Assembly (NCBI RefSeq): GCF_000186365.1
Contig: NC_014961.1
Span: 620,001-684,000, forward strand
DNA length: 64,000 nt
From: Desulfurococcus mucosus DSM 2162
Lineage (GTDB): Archaea; Thermoproteota; Thermoprotei_A; Sulfolobales; Desulfurococcaceae
Direction of reading: 5' to 3'
The first letter of the stretch is position 1; each line of letters starts with the position of its first letter. The notes under the pieces were generated by a model. The model did no database searches and was not told where the DNA came from. It saw only the letters and a program-made list of their open reading frames with translations. The position numbers were made by a program, and so were the translations under genes. Positions 48,640 through 55,016 of this stretch are shown piece after piece.

Positions 48640-48783
48640 AACGAGCCTACCTCGGCACTAGATGTTTCCGTGCAGGCACAGGTACTTGAGCTACTGCGAG
48701 ATCTCCAGAAGAGATTCGGGCTCACATATCTCTTCATATCCCATGATATATCCGTTGTGAAGTATACGAGCAACAGGATGGCC
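48640..48783 (+). pseudogene. Fragment 1 of an OppF/DppF-type ABC ATPase gene
   Basis: In frame from 48643 the sequence reads [20 protein letters not shown] then [20 protein letters not shown] and YTSNRMA. This is the Walker B end, D-loop and switch-histidine region of an oligopeptide/dipeptide ABC ATPase. The normal D before EPTSALD is N, a stop lies at 48622-48624, and everything N-terminal is missing. At 48784 the frame enters the TnpB right end and stops as LTSSPP. The C terminus of the same family appears beyond the element at 50192. Confidence 0.85.
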
Positions 48784-50118
48784 CTGACCTCCTCCCCGCC
48801 CTAAAGGGGCGAGGGTCCCCTTAGGGTGGATCACGGGTTTGTGGTTTACCGCCTTCATTCTCACTACTTCATAGCTGGTGGCTTTCAGCCACCCCGCTCC
48901 ATTCGTCCAGCGGTAGACCACGGGCTGGGTCTTCAGCCCGTTACCCCTATCCCTCTCCGGGAGTTGCCCTCTACTCCCGGTTCCTTGGGACTCGGGGATA
49001 TGTAGGATGTTTATTGCGGCATTCAAGTCCGCGTTTATAACCCTCCCCATGCGGGGACACTTGAACAAACCACGCTTAACACGCCCATTATCGTGGGCTT
49101 CCCCGCATAGGGAGCAAGTCTTAGATGTGTGAGCCTCGTTAACCTTAACAACCTTAATTCCCAATTCCTCCCCGATCTCCTCGAAACGCCTGATAACGTA
49201 ATCATAGCTCCAGAAGTTTACCGTGAGCTTGTTGCCTCGACTCCTAGAAATCCCCTCAGGATAACCTACGATGATTTCACCCACTTCCCTCCCCTTTAGC
49301 TCCTCCATTATCCTCCTAACCATGCTGTTCAAGGCGTGCCTCAGAAACCTCCTCCTCTTGTCGTAGAGCAAGGCAAGCCTTCTACCCCTCCTTTGCCCGT
49401 GCCTAGATAGAATCTTCTGAACCCTGCTTATCCTCTTGCCGTAGTACTCATACTGCGAAAGAACGCTACCGCCCTTGAAAATGTACCAGTCACCGTCCTC
49501 AACGTAGACGGTGGCTAGGTTGACAATCCCCAGATCCACGGAAGCTCTAAGGTCGCCCCCGGCTTCGGTGGTACCTTCAACTTCCACGGGGATATGAGCG
49601 TACCAGCTTTTTCTAGCTTCGTTGTATATTATCTCCAGTCTGCCCTGTTTTCCGTGCCACTTGAGTTTTCCCTTAAACCTCAGAGAGAGGTTGAAGTCTT
49701 TTAAATAGATAGTCCTCTTTTCCTCGTCCACCTTGTAACGGTCGTTTCTAATGATGACCGTTAGTTTGTATCTTCCGCTCCCATCCTTCCAGTACCCCGG
49801 AGGCCTAGGTTTAAACCACCTCGACAATTTTCCCTCCTTCTTCTCTCCAATCAAGGAGAAGAAGCTCCTCCAGTCCTCGGCGTTCTTCCTAGCGACTTGC
49901 TGTGCGTTAACCTTCAACGCGTCCCTATACTTTCGGTACACCTCCCTCTCCGTTCCGGTGAAATCGACCCTCTCCCCCCTCTTAAACTGCCGCATTCTTA
50001 ACCAGTTCACCTCGTTCCAGCATTTCGCGGTAGCGATACCGAGTCCCACGAGCTTCTCGTGCGTCTCTTTATCTACGACGAGTTTAACCACATTAGTCCT
50101 TCTCACTCTCTCATCCAC
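48691..50118 (-). CDS. tnpB: TnpB RNA-guided nuclease of an IS605-group element
   Basis: TnpB, an omega-RNA-guided DNA nuclease related to the ancestor of Cas12. The RuvC triad is intact: D195 in [15 protein letters not shown]288 in [11 protein letters not shown] and D364 in [10 protein letters not shown]. The zinc-ribbon has C335 and C338, then C354, but the fourth position is M357 (CPRM) instead of Cys, so zinc binding may be weak. Residues from about 445 on ([13 protein letters not shown] onward) are read through the element's right end into host DNA, antisense to the OppF-like fragment. No tnpA gene is present, so it is a TnpB-only element. Start ATG 50118. Confidence 0.9.
48784..48930 (-). 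ncRNA. Predicted reRNA (omega RNA) of TnpB
   Basis: Known TnpB systems make their guide RNA from the 3' end of tnpB and the right end. Here that is the minus-strand stretch ending in the hairpin and GGGGAGGAGGTCAG. The guide would be the following flanking bases, from 48783 downwards, starting GGCCATCCTGTTGCTC, which is antisense to the OppF-like fragment. The 5' border is a guess. Confidence 0.45.
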
Positions 50119-51699: not shown

Positions 51700-53874
51700 T
51701 CAGCCGAGCTTATACTCCCCTATGAGTTGCATAGTATCGGCACTCCACTCGGCTATAGAACTCCATGAGACAGTGTATATGCTTCCCCCTATGTAGACGG
51801 CTCTGATGGCTCCTGGATGCTGCAGTATCTTCACTAGGTGTAGCGATGAGTCACCCACCTTGACGACTAGGACTCCACTGGTAGTGTATGAGTATGGAAT
51901 ATACGCGTTCCCTCTCAGGGGATCCCATGTGAAGGCATGGTGATCCGAGAACACTGGGCTCCATCCAGGTAGCTCTATGTATGCACTCTCCCTGGGTTCC
52001 TCGGGCCTGGAAACATCGAACAGGCTTATCTTAAGCCCCCCGTTTCCACCGAGCCCGATCCCGAGAAGCCTGTCACCGCTCACCGGGTGCAGGTACTCGC
52101 TGAAACCCGGGGTCTTCAAGTAGCCGAGCACCCTGGGGTTCTCAGGGTTCGAGAGGTCTATTGCATACAATGGGTCAATCCTCCTGTAGGTCACCAGGTA
52201 GAACATGTTCTTGACTAGTCTAGCCGCGTATATTCTCTCACCGGGAGCCAGGTCGCTCAGCACCGCTACTGTTTTATTCACGCTTAGATCCACTACGGCT
52301 ACGAGGTTGCTGGTGTCGGACCCCGTTAACATGTACCAGAGGCCCCATGCAACGGGTTGCTGAATCATCCTTGAAGCATTGAGGAACACCGGTATTGTTA
52401 CGCATCTTGATTCAACGCACTCGACGACATTCACCTGGAGGTTTGATGCATCGCCAACCACCATGGGCGGCTGGTAGCGGGTGTAGTAAGCCTTGAAGAA
52501 AGCTGTTGTCAGAGTGGTGGCCGTGATAAATAGTCTTCTCCCATCTAGATTCATCTCCTCCATTGCGAACTGGTCTAGTATCAGCCCTTTGACCTTGATG
52601 GATCCCCTGAAAGCGAGGCTCGTCCCATTGACGTCCACCATGTAGAAGACTGTGGAATCCTCGACGCGGGGTATTAGGTCGCTGAGAACCCTGTTTACTT
52701 CGTCAATCAGCTTGCTGGCTTCCTCCATGCTGCGCGAGTTCAGGTACTCCACTATCCTCCTATACGCAGAGTTGTAGTCACCTCTACTCGCGTATGATGA
52801 AACATCACGTAGAACATCCTCCGGGAAAGCCCCTGACATTATTGACGCGTTCACCAATGCCTCCTGGAAGAACACGTCCAGCACCATGTATACAGGGTAT
52901 TTTGATGCAATGTATAATCGTTCACGCGACATGTATATCCAGTCAACGCTGCCTGTGACCACCGTCAGGTTCGATGAGTCCATTGAGGTGAGGTTAAGCG
53001 AGTAGACGGTGACCATGTACAATGGCAGCGTAAGTCCTTCGGGTATCAAGATGTCTTCAACAGGTTCACCATTGATACTTGGGATGAATGGTTTTATGGA
53101 TCCATTCTCACCGATGATGTACGCTGACGACGATGAAACAACATAGAGTATGCCACTGGAGAGCCTGGAACCGGTGAAGATACCGGATATCACCGCCCTC
53201 CCGACTTCAATAGGTGTTGAGGGGTTGCTCACATTGTAAACTACTACGAGTGTGCTACCGTGCTGCAAAGCTATACCAGTGTAGAGTAAGGTTATGCTCT
53301 GGAGGACTCCACGGCTCCCCGCTATCACGACTAGGTATCCTTTATCAAGGTAGAGGCCGTGAACCTGGTAGTTCTCGGGGAGCAGTATCCTGGAGACTGT
53401 TTTCTTTGAAACAGTGTCGAACACCCTTACTTCTCCACCGGTTGCAACATATATGTATCTTTCATCGTTCTTAACCACGTCTTCTTCGTCGACTCCCTCC
53501 ACCTGCACATTCGTCCCCGAGTAATACTGTGGTGAAGGCTGTGAGCGAGACTTCTCCAGTAAGGGTAAGCCCCCGACGATTATCGGGGTTATTGTTCTCG
53601 GCACACCTGTGGAGATGCTTAGCGAAACCCTCAGCGCCTCAAGCCTCCTTGCAAACAACTCCAGGATTGATGCCACACTAGTGTAGCCGTGTCTCTGACC
53701 GGTGCTAGGAGGCGGGACACTTATCTCTACGGGGATCCCGCTGGTTGAGGACGGGGTGGTATTCCTGCCGGTCCATTGCATACTTGTGAATGTCAGCGAT
53801 AATAGTATCCCTGCTACCACCGCTAGCACGGACAACGCTGCGAACGAGCGTGTTAAGGCATGCATTTCACTCAC
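51700..53874 (-). CDS. Exported protein with C-terminal beta-propeller domain (PF09826 type)
   Basis: A 724-residue exported protein of the beta-propeller family known as secreted proteins with C-terminal beta-propeller. The hallmark GTNVQVEGVDEEDVVKNDER is near residue 120, and blades follow, for example YIYVATGGEVRVFDT and YAIDLSNPENPRVLGYLKTP. An N-terminal signal anchor covers residues 9-30. A large insert (about residues 330-440) contains acidic helices (ASYASRGDYNSAYRRIVEYL). Function unknown; possibly a surface protease inhibitor or binding platform. It is divergent from the wHTH gene across an operator array. Start GTG 53874. Confidence 0.85.
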   Translation of the reverse strand: MSEMHALTRSFAALSVLAVVAGILLSLTFTSMQWTGRNTTPSSTSGIPVEISVPPPSTGQRHGYTSVASILELFARRLEALRVSLSISTGVPRTITPIIVGGLPLLEKSRSQPSPQYYSGTNVQVEGVDEEDVVKNDERYIYVATGGEVRVFDTVSKKTVSRILLPENYQVHGLYLDKGYLVVIAGSRGVLQSITLLYTGIALQHGSTLVVVYNVSNPSTPIEVGRAVISGIFTGSRLSSGILYVVSSSSAYIIGENGSIKPFIPSINGEPVEDILIPEGLTLPLYMVTVYSLNLTSMDSSNLTVVTGSVDWIYMSRERLYIASKYPVYMVLDVFFQEALVNASIMSGAFPEDVLRDVSSYASRGDYNSAYRRIVEYLNSRSMEEASKLIDEVNRVLSDLIPRVEDSTVFYMVDVNGTSLAFRGSIKVKGLILDQFAMEEMNLDGRRLFITATTLTTAFFKAYYTRYQPPMVVGDASNLQVNVVECVESRCVTIPVFLNASRMIQQPVAWGLWYMLTGSDTSNLVAVVDLSVNKTVAVLSDLAPGERIYAARLVKNMFYLVTYRRIDPLYAIDLSNPENPRVLGYLKTPGFSEYLHPVSGDRLLGIGLGGNGGLKISLFDVSRPEEPRESAYIELPGWSPVFSDHHAFTWDPLRGNAYIPYSYTTSGVLVVKVGDSSLHLVKILQHPGAIRAVYIGGSIYTVSWSSIAEWSADTMQLIGEYKLG

Positions 53875-53914
53875 CGCTGAATTATTTCGCCTGCATCCGA
53901 TTTATCTCAAATCA

Positions 53915-53941
53915 TTGAACGACTTGTTCAACCCGTTGAAC
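53915..53941. promoter_or_regulatory. Three-half-site operator array between divergent genes
   Basis: TTGAAC (53915-53920), GTTCAA (53926-53931) and TTGAAC (53936-53941) form two overlapping palindromes with 5- and 4-base spacers. It sits between the beta-propeller gene and the wHTH gene, just before the wHTH TATA-like ATTTAAGA. The wHTH protein is a natural candidate to bind it and control both genes. Confidence 0.6.
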
Positions 53942-53999
53942 ACTTCAAGATTTAAGACTAACTGTTCCAGATGAGTATAGTGGTCGGGAGGCTGTTTTA

Positions 54000-54413
54000 A
54001 TGAGTAGTGACCTAAGCGAGACCGAGCTGAGGATCTATGTCTACCTAGTTGAGAAACGTAGACCAATGGGTCTCCGCGAGATAGCTAGGGAGGTAAACCT
54101 GCCTGTGAGCACGGTACACTATAACCTTAGGAAGCTGGTTGAGAAGGGATATGTCGTGAAGAACCTTGAGGGATATGTGGCTAAGGGCTCCTTGAACATA
54201 GAAGGGTTTATCAGAGTGGGATACAGGGTTATCCCGAGGCTGATACTCTACTCACTCCTCTACCTGGGGATGTCCATAGGTGGAGCTATCTCCATGTATA
54301 TCCAAGGGTACTCGAGTGAGAGGCTGATGCTCATTGCAGTATCCCTCTCATCGTCATTACTGATGCTTCACGAGGGCCTCACCCTGAGAAGGAGGCTGAT
54401 GCATCGAGGTTGA
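54000..54413 (+). CDS. Membrane-anchored winged-helix transcription regulator
   Basis: A 137-residue protein. The N-terminal 65 residues form a winged helix: TELRIYVYLVEKRRPMGLRE, IAREVNLPVSTVHYNLRKLV as recognition helix, and EKGYVVKNLEGYVAKG as wing. Two membrane helices follow (LILYSLLYLGMSIGGAISMY and LMLIAVSLSSSLLMLHEGL), so the regulator is anchored in the membrane and could sense an external or membrane signal. It starts at ATG 54000 following TTTTA. The divergent beta-propeller gene and the TTGAAC array suggest it controls that gene and itself. Confidence 0.8.
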   Translation: MSSDLSETELRIYVYLVEKRRPMGLREIAREVNLPVSTVHYNLRKLVEKGYVVKNLEGYVAKGSLNIEGFIRVGYRVIPRLILYSLLYLGMSIGGAISMYIQGYSSERLMLIAVSLSSSLLMLHEGLTLRRRLMHRG

Positions 54414-54473: not shown

Positions 54474-54725
54474 ATGATGGCCCTGCTCATGCTTCTCACA
54501 GGGCTGGTTCTCCTCGCAGCCGGCGTAATCCTCCTGGTTTTAGAGGAGGCTGTGGGAAGACGGGAGGGAGGCAGGGAGTTCAGGGGAGGTTTTGTCGTGG
54601 TGGTGGGGCCTATACCGATAGTGGTTGGCAGCGATGAGGAAACTGGGAAAACCCTCGTGATCCTTGCGATAGCTCTATCGCTAGTGGCCCTGGCACTCTT
54701 CCTGGTACCTCTAATACTGGGGTGA
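54474..54725 (+). CDS. DUF131/TIGR00304-type small membrane protein, copy 1
   Basis: An 83-residue protein with two helices (MLLTGLVLLAAGVILLVLEE and LVILAIALSLVALALFLVPL) joined by a loop with RGGFVVVVGPIPIVVGSDEE. The GPIPIVxGSD motif and size match archaeal DUF131 (TIGR00304). Function unknown. It is 12 bases before a second related gene, so the two probably act together. Confidence 0.75.
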   Translation: MMALLMLLTGLVLLAAGVILLVLEEAVGRREGGREFRGGFVVVVGPIPIVVGSDEETGKTLVILAIALSLVALALFLVPLILG

Positions 54726-54737
54726 GGTGCTTAGGCC

Positions 54738-55016
54738 TTGAGGCTCTCCTTACTCTTGATAGCCATCGGCGTAATCCTCTTGATCACCGGGGGAATCGTA
54801 GCCGTCCTTGAGGCATTGCTGAGCAGTAGCGGGGCCAGTATCTCGGCTGGGGGGTGTATCATAGTGTTCTTCATACCACTGTGCTTCGGTGTAGGCGAGC
54901 ACCACGATGTATTATTGCTGGTATCAATGGTTATCGGCGCTGTGATCACGCTCCTACTCCTGTGGGGCATCATACAGGCGTCGAGAAGTAGGAATCCGAC
55001 CTCCTCCCCGCCCTAA
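54738..55016 (+). CDS. DUF131-like small membrane protein, copy 2, tail altered by TnpB end
   Basis: A 92-residue relative of the previous protein: helix LLIAIGVILLITGGIVAVLE, loop with GGCIIVFFIPLCFGVGEHHD in place of GPIPIVxGSD, then helix LLLVSMVIGAVITLLLLWGI. Its last residues, PTSSPP and the stop, are encoded by the TnpB-type unit that begins at 54998, so its original C terminus has been replaced by the element. It starts at TTG 54738. Confidence 0.65.
   Translation: MRLSLLLIAIGVILLITGGIVAVLEALLSSSGASISAGGCIIVFFIPLCFGVGEHHDVLLLVSMVIGAVITLLLLWGIIQASRSRNPTSSPP

Follow-up and report, generated by a model that had tools for sequence, protein, structure and literature searches.

A class of transmembrane transcription regulators (TTRs) has been defined (PMC10269533), and transmembrane regulators are reported there to be widespread among archaea. 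ArnR, the closest studied analogue of the regulator described here, and ArnR1 are membrane-bound HTH one-component activators of Sulfolobus acidocaldarius; ArnR requires both of two inverted-repeat boxes (TCGAC-N5-GTCGA) upstream of the flaB core promoter, and its target is archaellin (PMC6396743). ToxR/ToxS, TcpP/TcpH, and VtrA/VtrC have been tabulated with associated proteins, and ArnR without one (PMC10269533). In our judgement, the sensing of the outside by archaeal one-component systems is poorly known, and no description of the regulator-propeller circuit analyzed here was found in the literature searched. The first-pass annotation of this DNA had called the circuit unusual for archaeal signalling, which holds only in a relative sense given the precedent of ArnR/ArnR1 (PMC6396743) and the wide occurrence of TTRs in archaea (PMC10269533).

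The window, i.e., the whole stretch of 64,000 nucleotides of Desulfurococcus mucosus DSM 2162 that was analyzed, contains a gene for a membrane-tethered winged-helix regulator of 137 amino acids (54000-54413, forward strand). A Pfam scan revealed a winged-helix domain (TrmB/HTH_24), the TrmB match (PF01978, 41.8 bits) covering the winged helix alone. Two C-terminal membrane helices were recognized by hydropathy (residues 81-99 and 109-127) and in the AlphaFold model (residues 80-102 and 106-135; mean pLDDT 93), so the proposed fusion of a DNA-binding domain to two membrane helices was borne out. The DNA-binding domain spans approximately residues 5-61 and is followed by two short strands within residues 70-79 and then by the membrane helix that begins at residue 80; the two membrane helices are parted by a tight turn alone, and no extracellular sensor domain is visible in the model. 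The sensor function given to it in the first-pass annotation is therefore putative. TTRs are defined by a DNA-binding domain plus one or more transmembrane regions on a single polypeptide, and the protein is thus a TTR. When the whole chain was compared with solved structures by Foldseek, the best E value was 1.5e-3 and the match was driven by winged helices. By eye, the gene is preceded on the same strand by a Shine-Dalgarno-like GGGAGG (53986-53991) and a TATA-like TTTAAG (53951-53956), whose spacing to the operator array described below is not conserved in relatives.

Like ArnR, this crenarchaeal regulator combines an N-terminal HTH with two C-terminal membrane helices, and in both systems adjacent boxes directly precede the core promoter of a gene for a surface structure (for ArnR, PMC6396743). 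Unlike ArnR, which has a HAMP-like and sensor region between its HTH and its membrane helices, it has no such region in the model, the winged helix joining the membrane hairpin almost directly; moreover, its half-site reads TGTTCAA, and the gene served encodes a propeller. Candidates found beside archaellum operons, which by place, length, and topology are presumably ArnR, were 268-284 amino acids long at three of four loci, about twice the length of the regulator. The regulator profile matched these ArnR-like candidates weakly and mainly in the HTH (best single-domain E values of 0.001-0.004 among 55 ORFs). The regulator was not filed as ArnR because the HAMP-like and sensor region is missing and the profile match is weak. 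At three loci (L201:8285-9599, L202:1281-2582, and L203:1116-2483) the ArnR-like gene is followed by a gene for a protein of 162-170 amino acids with a C-terminal hydrophobic segment, and thus the theme of a regulator plus a partner may extend to ArnR. TrmB sugar regulators carry a C-terminal sugar-binding domain; no match to such a domain occurred among the 25 of 28 families listed, and the remainder of the chain consists of the two membrane helices. Bacterial ToxR-type regulators are single-pass proteins with a periplasmic domain, whereas the present regulator passes the membrane twice and has no outside domain; what it shares with ToxR/ToxS is a membrane-tethered DNA-binding protein encoded beside a gene for an exported candidate partner.

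The divergent neighbor (51700-53874, reverse strand) encodes a protein of 724 amino acids that starts at GTG 53874 or at an ATG located a few codons downstream. It matched PF09826 (Beta_propel) with 352.5 bits over profile positions 1-494 of 495, above the family cut-off, and has one N-terminal membrane segment (residues 11-29, hydropathy), which agrees with the earlier description of an exported beta-propeller protein beside the array. Its AlphaFold model consists for the most part of strands (mean pLDDT 80) and resembles WD-type proteins with a best E value of 3.9e-11 and TM scores of at most 0.26 among the 50 matches listed; a PDB search with the propeller profile detected no sequence relative at an E value of 0.1. 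A scan of named genomes for the propeller found two loci. COG4880 is named nowhere in the literature searched, and PF09826 is named there by a paper on a protein-family pipeline. The core promoter of the propeller gene (53899-53911, reverse strand), recognized by column conservation in aligned relatives, consists of TTTGAG followed by a non-canonical TATA-like ATAAATC, and the same alignment columns show that the distance from this promoter to the array is kept in relatives.

Between the two genes, three TTGAAC half-sites were said to alternate in orientation, and all three are exact and conserved in relatives: 53915-53920 on the forward strand, nearest the propeller; 53926-53931 on the reverse strand; and 53936-53941 on the forward strand, nearest the regulator. 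A degenerate fourth half-site, TTGAGA (53905-53910, reverse strand), overlaps the propeller core promoter. The three half-sites at this spacing occur perfectly once in the window and nowhere else in the whole 1.31-Mb genome. When three mismatches are tolerated, the window holds two matches where 0.03 would be expected by chance, and the second of these is the array itself in a shifted register. Over both spacings tried, the genome contains six further independent matches with at most three mismatches (one at two, five at three), and a reversed-pattern control gave none. Each of the six falls within an ORF of 100 amino acids or more, and they were therefore rejected as further targets, leaving the array as the sole match outside an ORF.

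The distribution of the two genes was investigated in an order-level sample of 147 genomes. A close regulator (E value of at most 1e-18) was found in 44 of them and the propeller family in 80, the window's own genome included in both counts. The propeller was present in all 44 genomes with a close regulator vs 36 of the 103 others, and the two genes lay within 3 kb of each other in 39 of the 44; the two further genomes of this genus among the 147 lack both. Propeller neighborhoods were taken from 60 of the 79 other propeller genomes, fragments and lower-scoring cases being mostly left out; L064 and L110 had too little upstream DNA and were dropped, so that 59 propellers, the window's included, were scored for the array (three half-sites; maximum 21; strict cut-off at least 16). 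The cut-off was reached upstream of 32 of the 59; among 2,360 dinucleotide shuffles 3 did so, and among 324 control genes taken from these loci 1 did. As with all counts over relatives given here, these include related genomes and are phylogenetically non-independent. The suggested co-occurrence of array and gene pair was supported: among propellers with a regulator homolog in the fetched stretch 29 of 43 passed, vs 3 of 16 without one, and the remaining 14 paired loci scored lower, some having variant layouts and others no recognizable array. The refuting condition named in the first-pass annotation, a missing array in relatives that have the pair, thus did not hold for these 29. The variant layouts of L079, L081, L084, and L090 were missed by the first array score and kept as misses. 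In four variant loci (L113, L115, L117, and L120) an exported gene overlaps the start of the regulator by 19-22 bases, the propeller is divergent from that pair, and a motif CTAGrGTnTCGAACA is shared.

The sole passing control gene (L083:3052-3903) adjoins a propeller locus and encodes an N-anchored exported protein of 283 amino acids without a Pfam match. It has a good array of its own (TGTTCAG/TTGAACG/TGTTCTA) and a TATAAA-like promoter and, judging by these features, is probably a second array target in that genome.

Rearranged loci help to decide which gene the array serves. The 44 loci with both genes comprise 32 divergent pairs, nine in which the regulator precedes the propeller, and three in which the propeller precedes the regulator. 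Of 11 co-directional loci that could be tested, 7 have an array scoring at least 16 in front of the propeller, three of the seven being near-identical. Of 12 such loci examined on the regulator side, none has an array of that score upstream of the regulator itself; three related ones carry two half-sites there (score 14). In addition, the distance from the third half-site to the TAGAG-TTAT core promoter of the propeller is nearly constant in relatives, and no fixed core-promoter spacing to the array was observed on the regulator side of 24 divergent loci. Since rearranged loci keep the array at the propeller and the spacing is fixed there and not at the regulator, the array is an element of the propeller, in line with the control of the propeller proposed in the first-pass annotation. 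Its companion idea that the regulator also controls itself fared poorly, and autoregulation was rejected as a conserved feature because none of the 12 co-directional loci has an array of score 16 or more before the regulator and no spacing is kept on its side in the 24 divergent ones, although it may occur where the intergenic region is shared.

These data make it probable that the regulator is a membrane-tethered one-component activator that binds the array and drives expression of the exported propeller, in the manner of ArnR. The cytoplasmic winged helices would bind the alternating TGTTCAA/TTGAACA half-sites as dimers, the half-sites lying approximately 10-11 bp (about one helical turn) apart and directly upstream of the propeller BRE/TATA, and the bound regulator would most likely activate the propeller by assisting TFB/TBP, the core promoter being weak. 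The protein would act as a dedicated local regulator with one recognizable promoter target in its genome. We infer activation rather than repression because half-sites spaced in this way directly 5' of a weak TATA are reminiscent of the boxes used by ArnR at the archaellin promoter. As the membrane hairpin has no outside domain, any signal has to reach it via the membrane or a partner; exported neighbors are frequent beside such regulators, which makes the exported neighbor a candidate source, comparable to ToxS and TcpH, the tabulated associates of ToxR and TcpP (PMC10269533), and it may be speculated that either this partner or the state of the membrane supplies the signal. That the operator recurs in many related archaea with its spacing to the propeller promoter preserved, as read from sequence, points to an unstudied form of membrane-based gene control.

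Other explanations of the same array have to be considered. That the half-sites are a chance arrangement has a negligible probability: single TTGAAC words are over-represented in the window (52 vs 21 expected), so only the ordered array is informative, but the perfect array occurs just once in the genome and is conserved over an order at a nearly fixed promoter distance, by which the chance explanation is refuted. It is unlikely, but less so by far, that the regulator binds the array and represses, its dimers covering the propeller BRE/TATA and, in the window, the regulator promoter too, until a membrane signal releases them. Such repression would fit the degenerate fourth half-site that overlaps the propeller core promoter and the close flanking of the array by both promoters in the window; however, the strong half-sites lie upstream of the TATA and not on top of it, the propeller TATA is non-canonical in relatives (TTATC), and ArnR activates from a similar position (PMC6396743).

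A site for an unrelated soluble regulator, with the membrane protein linked to the propeller for some other reason (e.g., assembly or quality control of the exported product), is a rather improbable alternative that draws on the propellers lacking a nearby regulator. The upstream region held at least one exact TGTTCRA for 27 of the 43 propellers that have a regulator no more than two genes away, for 10 of the 17 that do not, and for 17 of 378 control genes; with exact half-sites about equally common where no regulator is near, the sites do not depend on linkage, and their binder could be another protein. On the other hand, some genomes without a linked pair (e.g., G001, G013, G015, G040, and G060) have a regulator homolog elsewhere, and thus binding in trans is possible. 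More directly opposed to a soluble regulator, the composite operator is rare in control genes (4 of 374) and recurs upstream of some genes that share with the propeller just the neighboring regulator family. This last comparison relied on an operator matrix trained on 32 propeller arrays and applied to 62 upstream neighbors of regulators outside the training set, which include seven upstream of propeller-linked regulators (L080, L089, L105, L106, L107, L111, and L119) and one propeller (L172). Thirteen of the 62 (L150, L142, L176, L144, L177, L172, L175, L154, L189, L165, L173, L117, and L174) scored above the 99th percentile of the 374 controls, in counts uncorrected for kinship, and 49 failed the cut-off. 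Passing exported partners belong to the same family (L150), the same order (L144 and L142), and other families of the phylum (L175-L177, 432-464 residues, L175 and L176 without a propeller match); among the others, L172 is itself a propeller gene, found outside the order and divergently arranged in the same manner, the intergenic region of L117 is also that of a propeller, and the L165 match is unconvincing on visual inspection. Because paralogs often adjoin unrelated exported proteins, a minority of them with the same composite operator, the regulator is the likely ligand of the array, and on this ground we infer that it binds there, as the activator reading holds.

The regulator family extends well beyond the order. 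A profile built from the 44 regulators found matches in 165 of a phylum-wide sample of 300 genomes, as many as nine in some; f12 and f30 include genomes with eight or nine. At loci without an adjacent propeller, the upstream gene was classed as exported in 25 of 40 cases vs 79 of 378 background genes, the class being assigned from hydropathy to ORFs that had been picked mechanically. L145, L147, L148, and L164 fell outside the exported class, for which incomplete sequence or start choice may be the cause. Among 20 further phylum loci inspected by eye without a control set, 12 had next to the regulator a protein of 228 residues or more whose N-terminus carries a hydrophobic segment (the L172 propeller is one of these proteins), and the remaining eight had a neighboring protein of 79-132 residues with two hydrophobic segments. 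In a Pfam scan of eight non-propeller partners, seven had no match and one had a sub-threshold match. On the matrix results, some paralogous regulators across the phylum probably use the same operator logic beside different exported proteins. A broader scheme is possible though doubtful, in which split receptors occur throughout the phylum, each comprising a minimal winged helix on a two-helix hairpin without an outside domain and one of many unrelated exported proteins that would be both its regulated product and its extracellular sensor, with a conserved operator of alternating half-sites joined to a weak core promoter. The regulator family and, for part of it, the operator and exported partner are readable from sequence, and from this it is predicted that the PF09826 propeller, itself little studied, and several exported proteins outside any Pfam family have regulated roles. 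In f11 genomes, presumably Sulfolobaceae, which have the version without a propeller (L133-L139), the regulator is followed by a convergent gene for a membrane protein of 94-101 amino acids (L133-L139 and L155-L158).

Two small membrane proteins are encoded 3' of the regulator on the same strand (54474-55016), a DUF131/TIGR00304 protein and a weaker relative below the cut-off. The DUF131 genes were rejected as part of a conserved module, as none of the matches listed lay within 50 kb of a propeller in the order-mates compared; at L172, outside the order, a DUF131-like small protein was seen by eye two genes from the regulator. Elsewhere in the window, a TnpB-like ORF was recognized by eye at 48691-50118; its last zinc motif reads CPRMG, and one cysteine may thus be lost.
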